Positions 3,682 through 10,507 of a stretch of 10,507 bases of DNA are shown here, one piece after another. The position numbers and the translations under genes were made by a program. The notes beneath the pieces are model-generated. The model was not told the DNA's origin and searched no databases. It worked only from the letters and a program-made list of their open reading frames with translations. Every line of letters begins with the position of its first letter. Position 1 is the stretch's first letter. The DNA comes from Candidatus Dojkabacteria bacterium (GTDB taxonomy: Bacteria > Patescibacteriota > Dojkabacteria > B142 > OLB20): contig JAGQLK010000027.1 in NCBI GenBank assembly GCA_020429485.1, forward strand, positions 1 through 10,507, in the 5' to 3' direction.

Positions 3682-4614
3682 ATGGCTCTAGGGACAGAGG
3701 CTCCTAATGTCTTTGCAGTAAATAATAGGATTGATTATTCATTTGGCCTTGAAAGCCAGACATTTCCGTATCCGCATGTCATAAATGACCTAGTAGAATT
3801 TTGGGGAGAAGGAGAGGCAGCTGAGTTTATTGAAGATATTCGCTGGAGAATAGATCAGGTTTTTACCGATGATGGATATAAGGTTTTAGCATTTAATATT
3901 TTCAGACAATTTGCAATTGGAGAAGCATTGAGTCATGACAAAAGTGATCCAATGCATCAACAGGTAATAGTTGCTGCAAGAGCTTCTCTAGACAGATTGC
4001 CTGATTTGATTGCTAATTCATACCATTATCGTCAGCCATTAAATGATTATGATTGTCTAATAGCATTTACTGGAGCAGTAACTCATGATTATTTATCTAA
4101 GTCAGAAGATGGAACATCAGCTCTAGGGAATGTACCCAAAGTAGAACAGGAACTAGCAAATCTAGGTTGCAGTGATGTATTTGTACGAAATGTTAGCGAG
4201 TTAGTGTTAGCAACTGATTATCAGAATGCTGCAAATAACTGGATATATTGGGTGAGTCGTGGAGAGAACTTTGCTCAGGAATTAGGTGATCTTACCATTA
4301 ATATTCTGGCTACTCCAAGGGAGTATCTGTCTAATACTATACAGCAGCTTGCATATGCTCAAAGAACAAGTGTGAAGAGGATACTTATGCAAGCCCATGT
4401 GGTTATGGCTGACTTCTTAGGTATCTTTACTTCAGGTAACTACTTTGCGATTACAGACTTCCGTTATCCTGATGAAATCTCACCACCACTAGCTATGATT
4501 TCTTTAGTGGATGCTTTAGACAAGCTTACTGGTGGATCAAATGCACCAGATCCATGGATTATGCAAAGGTATAATGAGATACGAGAGTGGAGAATTGCAC
4601 AATCAATCCTATAA
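3682..4614 (+). CDS. HD-superfamily-like protein, uncertain
   Basis: The 310-residue soluble product has no signal peptide or clear membrane segment. Residues 112-185 recall the predicted metal-dependent HD phosphohydrolases of the COG4339 type. SYHY (113-116) comes first, then AFTGAVTHDYLSKSEDGTSA (128-147), where HD135-136 would be the metal-binding pair, then LVLATDYQN (174-182), at the place where that family has 'LILATKHH' or a late Asp. If correct it would be a metal-dependent phosphohydrolase acting on a nucleotide or other phosphoester. The spacing and the flanking N-terminal (1-110) and C-terminal (190-310) regions do not fit a standard member, so it may be diverged or inactive, or the match may be chance. 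No Shine-Dalgarno sequence precedes the ATG. The gene stands alone on its strand and ends five bases before a strong hairpin. Coding is secure; the family call is weak. Confidence 0.75.
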   Translation: MALGTEAPNVFAVNNRIDYSFGLESQTFPYPHVINDLVEFWGEGEAAEFIEDIRWRIDQVFTDDGYKVLAFNIFRQFAIGEALSHDKSDPMHQQVIVAARASLDRLPDLIANSYHYRQPLNDYDCLIAFTGAVTHDYLSKSEDGTSALGNVPKVEQELANLGCSDVFVRNVSELVLATDYQNAANNWIYWVSRGENFAQELGDLTINILATPREYLSNTIQQLAYAQRTSVKRILMQAHVVMADFLGIFTSGNYFAITDFRYPDEISPPLAMISLVDALDKLTGGSNAPDPWIMQRYNEIREWRIAQSIL

Positions 4615-4618
4615 AAAA

Positions 4619-4638
4619 AGTGCGGCCTAAGCCGCACT
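4619..4638. terminator. Bidirectional intrinsic terminator between convergent genes
   Basis: AGTGCGGC (4619-4626) and GCCGCACT (4631-4638) form a perfect GC-rich 8-bp stem with a CTAA loop. On the minus strand it is followed by a run of seven T and ends the 4661-5140 transcript. On the plus strand it starts five bases after the stop of the 3682 gene but lacks a T run. Confidence 0.9.
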
Positions 4639-4660
4639 CTAAATTCAAAATGAATTATTC

Positions 4661-5140
4661 TTACTTAGTAAAAGCAAGGTAAATCATGTAGAAGAAGTTG
4701 ATTCCTGGAAGGAATAACAATAGAACGTGCCATGTTGGCATGCCTAGTTTTTCTAGAAGTTTTACCCAAACCATTATAGTAACAACAATGTTAGCAACAG
4801 GTACGAACATTAGTAAGAAGTACCACATTGGATATCCTGATACCTTAACAAGAAGCACCATGTTCAAAACAGGCACAAATGCCCACCATGCATCTTTCTC
4901 TTCACCAGCTCTTTTAACGATTCTGAATAGTAAGTATGCACCGAAAAGGTATGCAGCTAAGTAGAAAACGCCAAGACCAAGTAGTGTCGCTAGTGCTGCA
5001 CCATCACTAACTTCTGTAGTTGTCTCATATGAATAATCATAGAGAAAATCATCTGTTTGTGCGAATGCAGTTTGTGCTGTAGCAGCTAGTGCTGTCAACG
5101 CAACAAGACCTGAAGAGGCAATTTTGGTTAACTTAGACAT
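4661..5140 (-). CDS. DUF5684-like small membrane protein with signal peptide
   Basis: The 159-residue product starts with a signal peptide (MSKLTK, hydrophobic core, cleavage probably after AFA at residues 25-27), then a short Asp/Tyr/Thr-rich segment (29-46). Four hydrophobic segments follow at about 49-73, 86-100, 105-125 and 136-157. Repeated Pro-Asn motifs, FVPVLN (88-93), FVPVAN (112-117) and FLPGIN (143-148), are typical of the DUF5684 family, often annotated as signal-peptidase-I-like. It lacks the Ser/Lys catalytic pair expected of a real signal peptidase, so I make no enzymatic call. I choose the ATG at 5140 because the consensus promoter at 5169-5197 lies just upstream; a longer in-frame start at 5197 would fall on the -35 box. 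The gene has its own promoter, although msrA lies upstream on the same strand, and ends at a strong terminator. Confidence 0.8.
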   Translation of the reverse strand: MSKLTKIASSGLVALTALAATAQTAFAQTDDFLYDYSYETTTEVSDGAALATLLGLGVFYLAAYLFGAYLLFRIVKRAGEEKDAWWAFVPVLNMVLLVKVSGYPMWYFLLMFVPVANIVVTIMVWVKLLEKLGMPTWHVLLLFLPGINFFYMIYLAFTK

Positions 5141-5937: not shown

Positions 5938-6831
5938 ATGGATCAAGAAACATATACAGCAATAATTGATGAGTCTGCAGATACATGGGGTAGTGCTGCT
6001 CTTACAGATTTAGAACAGGATCTGTTATTTCAGAGAAGAAGAGAATTGGGTAGTTGGGAAGCTGTTAGGGCAGAAGTTCTATCCGGCGGTCCAATGATTC
6101 CTGATCAGGTATTAGGCAGTGATTTCGTGCAGGCAGCTGTTCTACATGGCTGTCCAGTTGGCTATGAACTAATGCAAAATACTGAAGAGTGGGGAAGGTA
6201 TGTCTGGTCTTACATCACCAAAAACAGAGCTTTTAGAGCGTTTAAAAGAATGATTGGTAGTACTGGTAATGAAACTCTTTATCAAGAATGGGTTGGTGAT
6301 GAATTTAAGCAATCTGGTGAGCAAGGAACAAGTGAGATTATTAGACCATTAGAAGAAGGAGATTACGAAATTCCTATCAGAGGCATAGAAAAGACAGCGG
6401 CCTATTGGCCATGTCAAATGTTAAGAGTATTAGAAGCATATAGAACAGGGAGAGAATATCTTGATCTTGATCCTAATTTAGTAACTAGAAGAAGGGAGCT
6501 TCTAAGTATTGAATGGTTTTCGTTACAACCAGCAGTAGATGCAGCTGACAGCATAGAAGATGTAGCGATAAATGTAGCTGTAAGTATTACTCACACCTTA
6601 AAAGAAAGAGGGCTAGACGATTTAACAGTTGCAAGGATTGTAATGCGTGGATATGACCCACAACCAATGTTAGAAGAGCATGGACAGTATGAGAGTATAG
6701 GCTGGTTATGGCAAAGAATACTTGAAGAGCTAAATACTGAAGAAGATAACCTGGGATTGACTGAGATATTAAGTCACGAGGTAGCTCGTAGAACCCAGTT
6801 AGCATATGAGAAAAAATCTGGAAATCAGTAA
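5938..6831 (+). CDS. Hypothetical soluble helical protein, lineage-specific
   Basis: I do not recognise this 297-residue protein. It is predicted to be almost entirely helical, is rich in Glu, Arg, Leu and Trp, and has no signal peptide or membrane helix. Visible blocks are an N-terminal helix with RRRELGSWEAVRAEVL (33-48), a region with HGCPVGYELM (70-79), a Gly-containing middle (IGSTGNE, 106-112) and an Arg-rich segment TRRRELLSIEWF (183-194). The C-terminal half is long and acidic. No catalytic motif, zinc ligand set or nucleotide-binding loop is evident. The ATG at 5938 has a perfect TATAAT 25 bases upstream and no Shine-Dalgarno sequence. The gene is divergent from msrA and lies 83 bases before the small acidic gene on the same strand, which has a promoter of its own. 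Coding status is supported by length, composition like its neighbours and a spaced promoter. Confidence 0.78.
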   Translation: MDQETYTAIIDESADTWGSAALTDLEQDLLFQRRRELGSWEAVRAEVLSGGPMIPDQVLGSDFVQAAVLHGCPVGYELMQNTEEWGRYVWSYITKNRAFRAFKRMIGSTGNETLYQEWVGDEFKQSGEQGTSEIIRPLEEGDYEIPIRGIEKTAAYWPCQMLRVLEAYRTGREYLDLDPNLVTRRRELLSIEWFSLQPAVDAADSIEDVAINVAVSITHTLKERGLDDLTVARIVMRGYDPQPMLEEHGQYESIGWLWQRILEELNTEEDNLGLTEILSHEVARRTQLAYEKKSGNQ

Positions 6832-6839
6832 ATTTTTTC
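6810..6839 (+). terminator. Weak AT-rich hairpin at the end of the 5938 gene
   Basis: GAAAAAAT (6810-6817) pairs with ATTTTTTC (6832-6839) across the stop codon. The stem is almost all A-T and the T run is part of the stem, so at best it is a weak terminator. Confidence 0.25.
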
Positions 6840-6850
6840 AAAAAAAAGGG

Positions 6851-6879
6851 TTGCGATGTTTGAAACGCACTAATAGAAT
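6851..6879 (+). promoter_or_regulatory. Probable promoter of the acidic small-protein gene
   Basis: TTGCGA (6851-6856, four of six) and TAGAAT (6874-6879, five of six) are separated by exactly 17 bases. The predicted start near 6886 is about 29 bases before the ATG. It lies inside the left arm of an 11-bp inverted repeat. Confidence 0.6.
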
Positions 6880-6881
6880 AT

Positions 6882-6920
6882 GCTCATAATTAATATTATT
6901 TAGACCTAATAATTATGAGC
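6882..6920. repeat. 11-bp perfect inverted repeat spanning transcription start and start codon
   Basis: GCTCATAATTA (6882-6892) and TAATTATGAGC (6910-6920) are exact reverse complements separated by 17 bases. The right arm contains the ATG of the acidic small protein (6915-6917), and the left arm contains its predicted transcription start. It could be a DNA operator or, if transcription starts early enough, a hairpin hiding the start codon. Confidence 0.6.
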
Positions 6921-7070
6921 GATCAGGTTGATAAAAATGAAGAAGTCCAAGACGATGAGAACGTAGAGATCGATGATGTTAATCTTGATTCTTTTGCAGA
7001 TGAATTCGATGAAGATGAAGATAACTTTGGTCTAGACATTCCTTCTGAAGAAGACGACGATAGCTATTAA
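6915..7070 (+). CDS. Small, highly acidic protein (51 residues)
   Basis: An ATG at 6915 opens 51 codons ending in TAA at 7068-7070. The product has 15 Asp and 9 Glu, nearly half of all residues, and only one Lys. It has a short less-charged segment, NFGLDIPSEE (37-46), and no hydrophobic segment, so it is probably disordered and soluble. Such proteins can mimic nucleic acid or act as acidic partners of a basic protein, but nothing in the sequence names a partner. Support for coding is a well-spaced promoter at 6851-6879, an extreme but consistent codon bias (GAT and GAA dominate) and the same short non-Shine-Dalgarno leader as neighbouring genes. The inverted repeat over its start suggests tight control. 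It could be a chance frame in a GA-rich stretch, but the run of acidic codons argues against this. Confidence 0.65.
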   Translation: MSDQVDKNEEVQDDENVEIDDVNLDSFADEFDEDEDNFGLDIPSEEDDDSY

Positions 7071-7113
7071 CTCTATCCCCATTTACTAATTATGACCTTT
7101 ATAGAAATATAAT

Positions 7114-7139
7114 GTTTCTGTATGAAACTTACTATTTTT
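7114..7139 (+). terminator. Weak intrinsic terminator after the acidic gene
   Basis: GTTTC (7114-7118) and GAAAC (7124-7128) form a five-base-pair stem with a TGTAT loop, followed by a T-rich tract ending in five T at 7135-7139. The short stem makes this a modest candidate. Confidence 0.3.
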
Positions 7140-7163
7140 ATAATGAACTAGTCATAGATTTAC

Positions 7164-7351
7164 TATATCTATCAGGTGTAAAAGTACCATTATAGATATA
7201 ATTGCTCAATTAGTATTTATTTACTAATTGATCTTTAACAAGTAAAGAACATGGTACTTAATAGTCTGCAAATAGCAGATGAGCGAAAGTTGTTTTCAGA
7301 CTATTATGTATGTCTGATGATATCGGTCCACATTAGTAAAGGAGATGATAA
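7164..7351 (+). ncRNA. Candidate structured 5' leader with mutually exclusive hairpins
   Basis: Positions 7071-7351 have no gene but many exact inverted repeats. A local hairpin pairs 7164-7172 with 7192-7200 (9 bp), with an inner GGTGT/GTACC stem. It competes with a distal stem in which AAGTACCAT (7182-7190) pairs with ATGGTACTT (7251-7259). The distal stem would enclose TCAATTAGTA/TACTAATTGA (7206-7215 with 7222-7231) and CTTTA/TAAAG (7233-7237 with 7243-7247), making a three-way junction. Next comes a 10-bp stem, 7259-7268 with 7297-7306, sharing one base with the previous stem. It has two competing stems, TCTGC/GCAGA (7265-7279) and TCAGAC/GTCTGA (7296-7317). ATTAGTAAA (7332-7340), overlapping the Shine-Dalgarno site, is complementary to TTTACTAAT at 7220-7228 and 7082-7090. 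TATAAT boxes at 7108-7113, 7139-7144 and 7197-7202 could start the transcript. It matches no riboswitch or RNA family I know. Confidence 0.5.
7338..7344 (+). promoter_or_regulatory. Strong Shine-Dalgarno site, unusual in this window
   Basis: AAAGGAG lies seven bases before the ATG at 7352. No other gene here has a comparable site. Its first bases belong to a segment (7332-7340) that could pair with upstream TTTACTAAT copies, so access to it might be switched. Confidence 0.75.
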
Positions 7352-7822
7352 ATGTTCGAAGGACCTTTTGGTAACATGACTTTGCCGCAACAAGTGGCCA
7401 CAACAATCATTGCGATCGACACAATCTTATCTATGATTCTCATAGTTTGTTGGCGTTTATTGCAAAGCACAAATAATCCCAAGTACGAAAAAATACTCAT
7501 GGTGATTATGATCAGCACCTTGGCAATAGGGCTTGCTGTTTCCGTCCCGGCGAGTATTTTTTGGGATACGTTGTGGTCATGGCGAACTCTTCCTGCTGAA
7601 GAGCAGATGAGTTTGTTCAGGCTTGTCATTATTGATGTGGTTGCGTGTTATTTTTTAGTCGCTTCCGCTCTTATCATGTATTTCTCAGAATCAAAGCGTG
7701 TACAACAGATTGCCGTTGTCATTTTCCTCATTGCTTTGATAATAGCGATACCAATTTCGATTTATATCGGTTTCGTCGAATCCAAAGCGCAATGGGACGC
7801 ATTCTGGGACTTTCTTAAGTAG
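7352..7822 (+). CDS. Four-helix membrane protein of unknown function, atypical codon use
   Basis: The 156-residue product has four hydrophobic segments at about 13-34, 46-70, 86-108 and 115-140. The loop between the second and third is tryptophan-rich (WDTLWSWRTLPAEEQ, 71-85), and the tail is short and aromatic (WDAFWDFLK). There is no cleavable signal peptide and no motif that names a family, so it may be a small integral membrane protein such as a phage or accessory product. The ATG follows a strong Shine-Dalgarno site. Codon choice differs from the neighbours: CGT, GCG, CCG, GTC, TCC, ATC and TTG are frequent where neighbours favour AGA, CTA, TTA and GGA, and it ends in TAG. Together with the structured leader, this suggests recent acquisition or a different expression regime. 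It faces the uppP gene, convergent across 113 bases. Confidence 0.8.
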   Translation: MFEGPFGNMTLPQQVATTIIAIDTILSMILIVCWRLLQSTNNPKYEKILMVIMISTLAIGLAVSVPASIFWDTLWSWRTLPAEEQMSLFRLVIIDVVACYFLVASALIMYFSESKRVQQIAVVIFLIALIIAIPISIYIGFVESKAQWDAFWDFLK

Positions 7823-9241: not shown

Positions 9242-10507
9242 TTTCTTTTAGCTCTAAAATATATCTTTCCATTGTACTCTGATTATCATTTTCTTTATTA
9301 ATATTTGTAGTGATAACCAATGGAAAGGCTGGTTTGTCTCTACCTACATGTGGTAAAAATTTTGAGTCAATTAAATAGCCTTGTCCTGCTTCCGTTAGAG
9401 CAAGATGTTTTGTTGTAAATGCGTTTAGTCTGTAGCTATATTGGGGATATTCAGATACTATTTGTTTGACTTTAGTAAGCTCTTCCTCAGTTAGCTCTTC
9501 TAGTGGGGCCCCAATTATCCAATTTATGAAATCATAGTCCGCTTCGGTTTTCCCTCTAACAATTACCACTTGGGCACGCAATTTTGGACCAAGTTCAATA
9601 GGTATTGATATTGCTTTGCTTGCTGCTTGAAGTGTAACACCAATTTCTGCTGGGTAAATCATGGCACCAAACTTTAATCCAGGTGCCTTATCTCTTCTAC
9701 CGAGTAGTTTATATGCTGGAAGTTGAGAGCCACATGAACATGGAGAGTCAACTGTGAAATATTTAACTACTCCAAAATCAGCTGCATCATTGACAAAAGA
9801 AGCTACTCCTTCACCTCCAAGTCTGGTCATTAGCAGTAATTTCCTTTTTCCCTCGTCAACCTGGGTCGTATAATTTGACATTGGACTATAGTGAATGAAG
9901 CCTGGTTCACATGTAGGCTGTATTTCACTGTATCTAATACCTCCTACTGAGCTATGTACCTCAGCCTTGCCTGCAGATTCAACTATTTGTTTTGGTTTCC
10001 AATATTTATGAAAATACTCAATATGACTGTCTGTTAAGAAGTTACCTAAGCCAGATATAATATTCGAGATATTAAGATCTTTAGGATCGAAACCAGCTTG
10101 AAGAGCTAGCTCAGTGAATCGTATTATGATGGCAGGAACTGAGGCGATGAAATCATAGTTGTAATTCTCTTTATTATTAAAAAATTCTGTAACACCTTCT
10201 ATGGTTAATAATTCATGAGTATCTGGGAAGTCTACAGTGATATCTGTTGTATCACTCAAGATTTTATATGCTCTGCCAACAATTCCCTGATTGGAAATAA
10301 AAGATAATCCTCTCGAACCAGAACTTAGCCTCAGAAGTCCCATTTTCATTATATTAGGCTCAACAAAGCACTTGTAGTATGCCCATTCGTCCCAAGGTAA
10401 CTCATAGGGGTTTCTTGTAGTAGTTCCACTAGTGTAATGAGTGTGTACATCTCCTTTGAAATCATCATGCCACATAGTACGCCCATCTTTTAAATATTCT
10501 GCTTTTG
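9234..10507 (-). CDS. PaaK-like adenylate-forming enzyme (5' end outside window)
   Basis: The frame is open from the TGA at 9234 to the right edge, at least 424 residues. Numbering from the Met at 10475, YTSGTTTRNP (14-23) is the ATP-phosphate-binding core of adenylate-forming enzymes (usually TSGTTGxP). FIASVPAIIIRFTELALQAG (109-128) and ISGLGNFLTDSHIEYF (140-155) match the PaaK substrate-domain layout. CSCGSQLPAYKLLGRRDKAP (246-265) followed by MIYPAEIG (272-279) corresponds to the PaaK/F390-synthetase 'C-CG ... GR-DD ... vfP-EIE' block. Such enzymes activate a carboxylate with ATP, usually to a CoA thioester. PaaK-type proteins have about 90 residues before the core motif and the frame continues upstream of 10475, so that Met is probably internal. 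The Nudix gene overlaps its end and uppP follows. The superfamily is clear; the acid substrate is unknown, and an acyl-transfer or lipid role is only suggested by the neighbours. Confidence 0.85.
   Translation of the reverse strand, partial: KAEYLKDGRTMWHDDFKGDVHTHYTSGTTTRNPYELPWDEWAYYKCFVEPNIMKMGLLRLSSGSRGLSFISNQGIVGRAYKILSDTTDITVDFPDTHELLTIEGVTEFFNNKENYNYDFIASVPAIIIRFTELALQAGFDPKDLNISNIISGLGNFLTDSHIEYFHKYWKPKQIVESAGKAEVHSSVGGIRYSEIQPTCEPGFIHYSPMSNYTTQVDEGKRKLLLMTRLGGEGVASFVNDAADFGVVKYFTVDSPCSCGSQLPAYKLLGRRDKAPGLKFGAMIYPAEIGVTLQAASKAISIPIELGPKLRAQVVIVRGKTEADYDFINWIIGAPLEELTEEELTKVKQIVSEYPQYSYRLNAFTTKHLALTEAGQGYLIDSKFLPHVGRDKPAFPLVITTNINKENDNQSTMERYILELKENA

Follow-up and report, generated by a model that had tools for sequence, protein, structure and literature searches.

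A strongly folded RNA element between two orphan genes of a Dojkabacteria bacterium, with a predicted link between their translation

The preQ1-II riboswitch is an H-type pseudoknot with a hairpin in its long loop, and known riboswitch classes recur before several genes. Another described system is that of coupled cistrons, and PMC5318159 states for overlapping ORF pairs that ribosomes coming from upstream may unwind structure and thereby promote coupling. We analyzed a window of 10,507 bases, which is a whole contig in the genome (1,289,971 bases, 246 contigs) of an uncultured ultra-small bacterium. An RNA element of 281 bases (7071-7351) lies in this window between ORF1 (6915-7070) and ORF2 (7352-7822). 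As in the coupled cistrons, the Shine-Dalgarno (SD) sequence of the downstream gene is placed within a predicted structure, the other strand of which is located at the end of the upstream gene, and ribosome movement would open this structure. In contrast to those cistrons, the ORFs do not overlap and are separated by 281 nt, and the locus combines a candidate pseudoknot core and a predicted strand hand-over with orphan genes. The element resembles preQ1-II in its candidate H-type topology, in the helices inserted in loop 3 and in its location upstream of an SD; it differs in having stems of 9+9 bp, two loop hairpins, an SD that belongs to a separate closing helix and not to the pseudoknot, and no Rfam match.

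In the searched literature, riboswitches and Patescibacteria occurred together only in PMC11665869, which mentions riboswitches as possible tools and lists synthetic ones among its references. The search returned nothing on T-boxes of Dojkabacteria, on T-box riboswitches of the candidate phyla radiation, or on structured RNA of Patescibacteria, and the main text of the T-box database paper (PMC7778990) contains none of the terms Candidat-, Patescibacteria and CPR.

The locus and its flanking genes

The features of the locus, some of them predicted, are the following.

6851..6879, + strand: promoter-like TTGCGA-17-TAGAAT (9/12 matches), a candidate only, ahead of ORF1
6915..7070, + strand: ORF1, a 51-aa acidic ORF, with the stop codon at 7068-7070
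7079..7090, + strand: 5' strand of the predicted closing helix P1; CC 7079-7080 pairs with the SD GG and 7082-7090 with 7332-7340, A7081 being bulged
7094..7097, + strand: GACC, a candidate continuation of P1, complementary to GGTC 7325-7328
7099..7143, + strand: hairpin A, AU-rich, in the MFE structure
7164..7172, + strand: 5' strand of the candidate pseudoknot stem S1, partner 7192-7200
7182..7190, + strand: 5' strand of the candidate pseudoknot stem S2, within the S1 loop, partner 7251-7259
7192..7200, + strand: 3' strand of S1
7206..7231, + strand: hairpin C, 10 bp, perfect (7206-7215/7222-7231), in the long loop of the pseudoknot
7232..7248, + strand: hairpin D, 6 bp, TCTTTA/TAAAGA, in the MFE structure
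7251..7259, + strand: 3' strand of S2
7259..7306, + strand: hairpin E, 10 bp plus an inner helix of 7 bp, predicted probability 0.98
7332..7342, + strand: 3' strand of P1, ATTAGTAAA just before GGAG, plus the SD GG; predicted P1 probability 1.00 at 37 C
7338..7344, + strand: Shine-Dalgarno sequence AAAGGAG of ORF2, 7 nt before the ATG
7352..7822, + strand: ORF2, a 156-aa orphan, predicted helical membrane protein

Acidic residues (D or E) occupy 24 of the 51 positions of ORF1, which would not be expected from AU-rich non-coding sequence, and the protein belongs to a database cluster (P0002, 100% identical, 2 members on 8 contigs, possibly including the contig analyzed here, as one of the 8 has the length of the window). 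Therefore, ORF1 is probably a real gene. It had no match in Pfam or NCBIfam. ORF2 has a GC content of 0.42, compared to 0.37 for the whole window. No homologues of ORF2 were found in its own genome, in viral contigs or in 84 other genomes of the class, and a single relative (P0001, 99% identical), which shows that variants of the strain exist, was present among 5.8 billion proteins. Comparison of ORF2 with Pfam and NCBIfam produced sub-threshold matches only, including DUF6594 (E 0.024), DUF1240 (0.18), SLATT_3 (0.69) and DUF4231 (1.2), and its single-sequence AlphaFold model (mean pLDDT 75.5) had no PDB match at E <= 0.001. For the 297-aa protein encoded upstream, one partial match (27% identity) was detected among the 84 other genomes.

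Within the scanned interval 6800-7600, the site at 6851-6879 is the only promoter-like site on the + strand upstream of ORF2. The two strands of this interval together contain 5 promoter-like sites, compared to 3.4 expected from shuffles; thus, the promoter evidence is weak. No promoter-like site was found on the + strand between 6880 and 7351, and no terminator-like site was found in 6800-7600. The first-pass annotation of this DNA had expected a transcript 5' end at 7115-7205, which finds no support in a promoter-like site, the only candidate being ahead of ORF1; a start of transcription after 7091 would delete the helix that hides the SD. We infer that ORF1 and ORF2 share a transcript, that ORF1 is translated and that the locus is regulated. 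The element could also be a separate small RNA, or an element of mRNA processing or stability, without SD control. Such an RNA would be closed on itself by P1 and would carry several hairpins, and three TATAAT words, at 7108, 7139 and 7197, were noted by eye. These points have to be set against the extension of P1 into the ORF2 SD and against the negative promoter (+ strand, 6880-7351) and terminator scans, and we consider this alternative unlikely.

A 14-nt inverted repeat (93%) at 6882-6895/6907-6920 contains the ATG of ORF1 (6915), and its 3' arm, TAATAATTATGAGC, resembles TACTAATTATGACC (7084-7097) at the 5' strand of P1.

Folding strength and long helices

The first-pass annotation had described exact inverted repeats sharing strands, and the coordinates proved to be exact: 7164-7172/7192-7200 (9 bp), 7182-7190/7251-7259 (9 bp), 7206-7215/7222-7231 (10 bp), 7259-7268/7297-7306 (10 bp), 7082-7090/7332-7340 (9 bp) and 7220-7228/7332-7340 (9 bp). 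The number of these repeats exceeds that found in shuffled sequences. The interval 7071-7360 contains 6 perfect Watson-Crick helices of at least 9 bp, compared to a mean of 0.475 in dinucleotide shuffles, and 0/200 shuffles reach 6; in 7160-7351 there are 5 such helices, compared to a shuffle mean of 0.22, with 0/200 shuffles having as many. The folding energies, which are nested ViennaRNA predictions here and throughout, point in the same direction. The folding control on 7071-7360 that had been proposed with the annotation yielded a z of -5.82, and 0/200 dinucleotide shuffles folded as well; the z values of 7115-7351 (-3.70) and 7164-7351 (-3.82) also beat 200/200 shuffles each. The gain from adding 7071-7114 suggests that the element begins upstream of 7164. 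The annotated interval, 7164-7351, is indeed structured, but both hairpin A (7099-7143) and the P1 5' strand (7079-7090) lie outside it.

A control from the same genome consisted of 40 contig stretches and the window (41 sequences, 236,456 bases), in which ORFs of at least 100 codons were masked and the 49 remaining pieces were folded on both strands. Among these 49 intergenic pieces, 7082-7351 has the top rank both in best-strand z and in the number of long helices (6, compared to 4 in the runner-up), and the piece at rank 2 contains the greater part of a T-box leader. An earlier control used 20 stretches and shorter pieces, and there 7082-7331 ranked 3/22 (z -4.40). The folding z, the helix count and the first rank of 49 together support the proposal of a structured RNA that ends at a ribosome-binding site.

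The palindromes could act at the level of DNA, or result from chance, with no role in RNA, and it is in favor of this reading that both strands fold well, the z of the minus strand being -6.81, compared to -5.58 for the + strand. Conversely, the MFE of the + strand is -72.5 kcal/mol, compared to -61.3 kcal/mol for the minus strand, such that the + strand is 11 kcal/mol more stable, the helix count was reached by 0/200 shuffles, and the piece is the first of 49; a DNA-level or chance origin is thus very unlikely. The computations argue for a real, strongly structured RNA, orphan as far as searched. What they show extends to the predicted fold, and a function as a switch is plausible.

It should be noted that, in 200-base sliding windows across the contig, 4501-4800 scores lower than the region of the element. 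The lowest z (-5.01) was found at 4601-4800 on the minus strand, between two converging ORFs, and this is perhaps a two-way terminator. Strong folding was also seen in another intergenic region of this genome, positions 9712-10001 of the stretch L022, with a z of -4.65 (+ strand) and 4 perfect helices of 9 bp or more. This region matched no Rfam family at gathering score, the matches obtained in 9720-10200 were all sub-threshold, and L022 was found to contain neither a tRNA nor a tmRNA.

Known RNA families and relatives of the element

No Rfam family matched the element at gathering score, which agrees with the initial impression of no known class, and the 11 hits obtained up to E 10 were all far below the gathering scores. 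Searches for relatives were also negative. A blastn comparison of 7071-7360 with 56 relatives of the bacterium found no homologue, none was found in phages and plasmids, and two exact words were absent from viral contigs. A covariance model built from one sequence (7160-7311, 152 positions) found no convincing homologue in 84 other genomes of the class, where two hits with E 0.016 and 0.062, of 92 and 97 bases, were judged to be chance, or in 378 other genomes of the phylum, a set that overlaps that of the class. These searches used strict filters, with at most 36 (class) and 8 (phylum) candidates scored per genome, so a one-sequence model could miss a diverged relative. Since no relatives of the RNA were found, its working as a switch remains a prediction.

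These results bear on the possibility of a ligand riboswitch of an undescribed class, in which the pseudoknot and hairpins C, D and E would be the aptamer, and P1 with the SD would be the expression platform. In favor of such a riboswitch are the strong folding, in which a pseudoknot and a junction are possible, the SD within the closing helix, and the Rfam result, i.e., sub-threshold hits only. However, no second instance was found in the class and phylum genomes with the one-sequence model and strict filters, and the orphan ORF2 hints at no ligand. We regard a ligand riboswitch as unlikely.

We also considered a diverged tRNA-sensing T-box, in which UGGUACU 7252-7258 would be the 7-nt bulge and hairpin D would be stem III. 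The element shares with a T-box leader (RF00230) the UGGNAC word, located in what could be a 7-nt bulge that follows a hairpin. The bulge geometry, judged by eye, is that of a site between ACA/UGU (7249-7251/7307-7309) and hairpin E. The hairpin TCTTTA..TAAAGA is similar to a stem III and resembles that of the T-box L032, and the same genome does use T-boxes. Against this, RF00230 did not detect the element up to E 10, and the element is absent from the 11 matches of this model in its own genome (84.8 down to 10.5 bits). A lineage model, R2, was built from 7 of these 11 matches (L028-L034; L035, which lacks TGGNAC, and L036-L038 were left out). It also gave no hit in the window up to E 10, and it is in effect a sequence model because its RNAalifold structure (3 pairs) is not the T-box fold. 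Furthermore, the element lacks GGTGGNACC, which is present in 7/7 of L028-L034, and no stem I was recognized by eye. A T-box at this position is hardly credible. As for membership in the family, the element was rejected: the antiterminators of L028-L034 contain the conserved GGUGGNACC, and the window reads CATGGTACTT.

RF00230 matches at E <= 1e-3 were present in 60/85 genomes of the class, and matches above the 93-bit cut-off in only 3/85. T-box leaders are common in this lineage, mostly below the Rfam cut-off.

Alternative pairings and a predicted translational gate

The 5' strand of S2 (7182-7190) is located inside the 19-base loop of hairpin 7164-7172/7192-7200, 1 nt from the 3' strand of this hairpin. 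Because of this placement, S1 and S2 can coexist as a candidate H-type pseudoknot of 9 bp + 9 bp, with a first loop of 9 bases and a last loop of 50 bases that holds hairpins C and D. An H-type pattern with a 1-nt junction was found in 0/500 shuffles at 9+9 bp or more, in 2/500 at 8+8 bp or more, and in 25/500 at 7+7 bp or more. The pattern of at least 8+8 bp occurs at 4 other places in 215,654 sample bases scanned (sequences with ambiguous letters were left out), so it is not unique at genome scale. In nested folds of 7160-7311, the energy is -34.6 with S1 and -37.5 with S2 (-10.1 for the S2 duplex alone), and the two stems compete in the nested ensembles (0.78/0.22). The S1/S2 pseudoknot may form in solution. 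Together with hairpins C, D and E it makes up the core of the element, which might serve as a binding site.

According to the first-pass annotation, the stems of three or more pairs exclude each other, and this number could not be confirmed. In the first pair, 7164-7172/7192-7200 and 7182-7190/7251-7259 exclude each other only in nested folds, and an H-type pseudoknot permits both. In the second, 7259-7268/7297-7306 and TCAGAC 7296-7301/GTCTGA 7312-7317 are indeed exclusive, but they are far from balanced, with predicted probabilities of 0.98 and 0.02. The third pair, in which 7332-7340 would be bound by 7220-7228 or by 7082-7090, is also exclusive, but the 7220-7228 partner has a probability of 0.00 in every ensemble computed. 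The partner that does have predicted occupancy instead is 7084-7091/7208-7215, in short transcripts.

A choice between S1 and S2 is also the basis of a possible leader-peptide attenuation. An ORF of 27 aa (7112-7195) ends inside S1, and thus a ribosome stalled on it would decide between S1 and S2; the ORF contains 5 Tyr codons (MFLYETYYFYNELVIDLLYLSGVKVPL). However, no SD was seen in the 20 bases before ATG 7112, and, in our judgement, ORFs as short as this one are not unusual in such DNA and AU-rich sequence often contains Tyr codons. We find attenuation highly improbable. The ATG at 7112 shares bases with the stop codon of an ORF of 6 codons at 7092 (TAATG).

The complement of the 9-mer beside the SD, TTTACTAAT, is present at 7082-7090 and at 7220-7228, and its partners are 7208-7215 (in part) and 7332-7340. 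Two upstream copies of TTTACTAAT were found in 1/20000 shuffles, and at least one copy in 222/20000. In growing transcripts that start at 7071, the pairing 7084-7091/7208-7215 has a probability of 0.98 for transcript ends 7216-7222 and 0.68 for end 7226, and it is lost (0.00) from end 7231, once hairpin C has formed; P1 (7082-7090/7332-7340) is at 1.00 from end 7341. These prefix foldings are equilibrium ensembles, not kinetics. According to these predictions, the genuine exclusivity is a strand exchange, in which 7084-7091 pairs with 7208-7215, is displaced by hairpin C, and 7082-7090 then pairs with 7332-7340. The 5' strand of P1 overlaps one copy (7081-7091) of an 11-nt direct repeat, and P1 is extended in the MFE structure by 7074-7077/7344-7347.

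At 37 C, GGAG is predicted to be unpaired with a probability of 0.20-0.26 when the transcript includes the 5' strand of P1, compared to 0.68-0.80 for starts at 7092, 7120 or 7151. Hiding of the SD is by itself ordinary, as GGAG is hidden at least as well in 166/300 shuffles and AAAGGAG in 32/300. The annotation had also suggested an RNA thermosensor. In such a sensor, the AU-rich stems would melt on warming and free the SD. An AU-rich helix does adjoin the SD. Yet P1 is predicted to stay shut from 15 to 55 C in transcripts that include its 5' strand (0.99-1.00), and over this range the probability of unpaired GGAG changes from 0.06 to 0.31 (start 6886) or from 0.25 to 0.28 (start 7071). The thermosensor reading is therefore unsupported, and its chance is very remote.

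The position of P1 relative to ORF1 points to a different way of opening. P1 starts just behind ORF1, with 8 bases between the stop codon and 7079. When the bases up to 7085 are kept open, as a ribosome at the stop codon might keep them, the probability of P1 decreases from 1.00 to 0.08 (transcript from 6960), and the probability of unpaired AAAGGAG increases from 0.15 to 0.72 (transcript from 7071). A response as large was observed in 0/300 shuffles, in which 7071-7331 was shuffled and the SD region was kept. The response depends on the footprint, since P1 remains at 0.98, 0.53 or 0.67 when the bases are open only to 7076, 7079 or 7082. Thus, in silico, a ribosome at the ORF1 stop codon can reach bases with which the SD of ORF2 is paired, given a footprint to about 7085. 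From the predicted opening of P1 by this ribosome and the absence of a comparable response in shuffles, we therefore tentatively favor intercistronic translational coupling of ORF2 to ORF1 via a long-range helix.

Under translational coupling, 7071-7351 would be an intercistronic, multi-branched RNA element in a two-gene transcript, with ORF1 followed by ORF2. The closing helix P1 (7079-7090/7332-7342) would cover the SD of ORF2 and keep this gene off, whereas a ribosome finishing ORF1 would cover the start of the 5' strand of P1, such that P1 would open and ORF2 would be translated. During transcription, the 5' strand of P1 would pair first with 7208-7215, would be displaced by hairpin C and would then be passed to 7332-7340, delaying the closing, and the core (the S1/S2 pseudoknot and hairpins C, D and E) would bring the distant strands together. 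A more specific version, that this is a new RNA design with a three-step cotranscriptional strand hand-over, read by the ribosome leaving ORF1, and with the 9+9 bp pseudoknot as a possible signal sensor, is quite unlikely. If true, the proposed regulation would give a lineage with little-studied gene control a native RNA switch that acts in cis. It would also provide a translation-coupled gate, open to testing, in which the strand hand-over is ordered. The reach of this claim is limited by the fact that the RNA, ORF1 and ORF2 are all orphans.

Elsewhere in the window, the ORF at 955-2124 on the minus strand carries the stretch DFMDGTRARSNG..GGSVDVVADR, which is reminiscent of the motif of CDP-alcohol phosphatidyltransferases.
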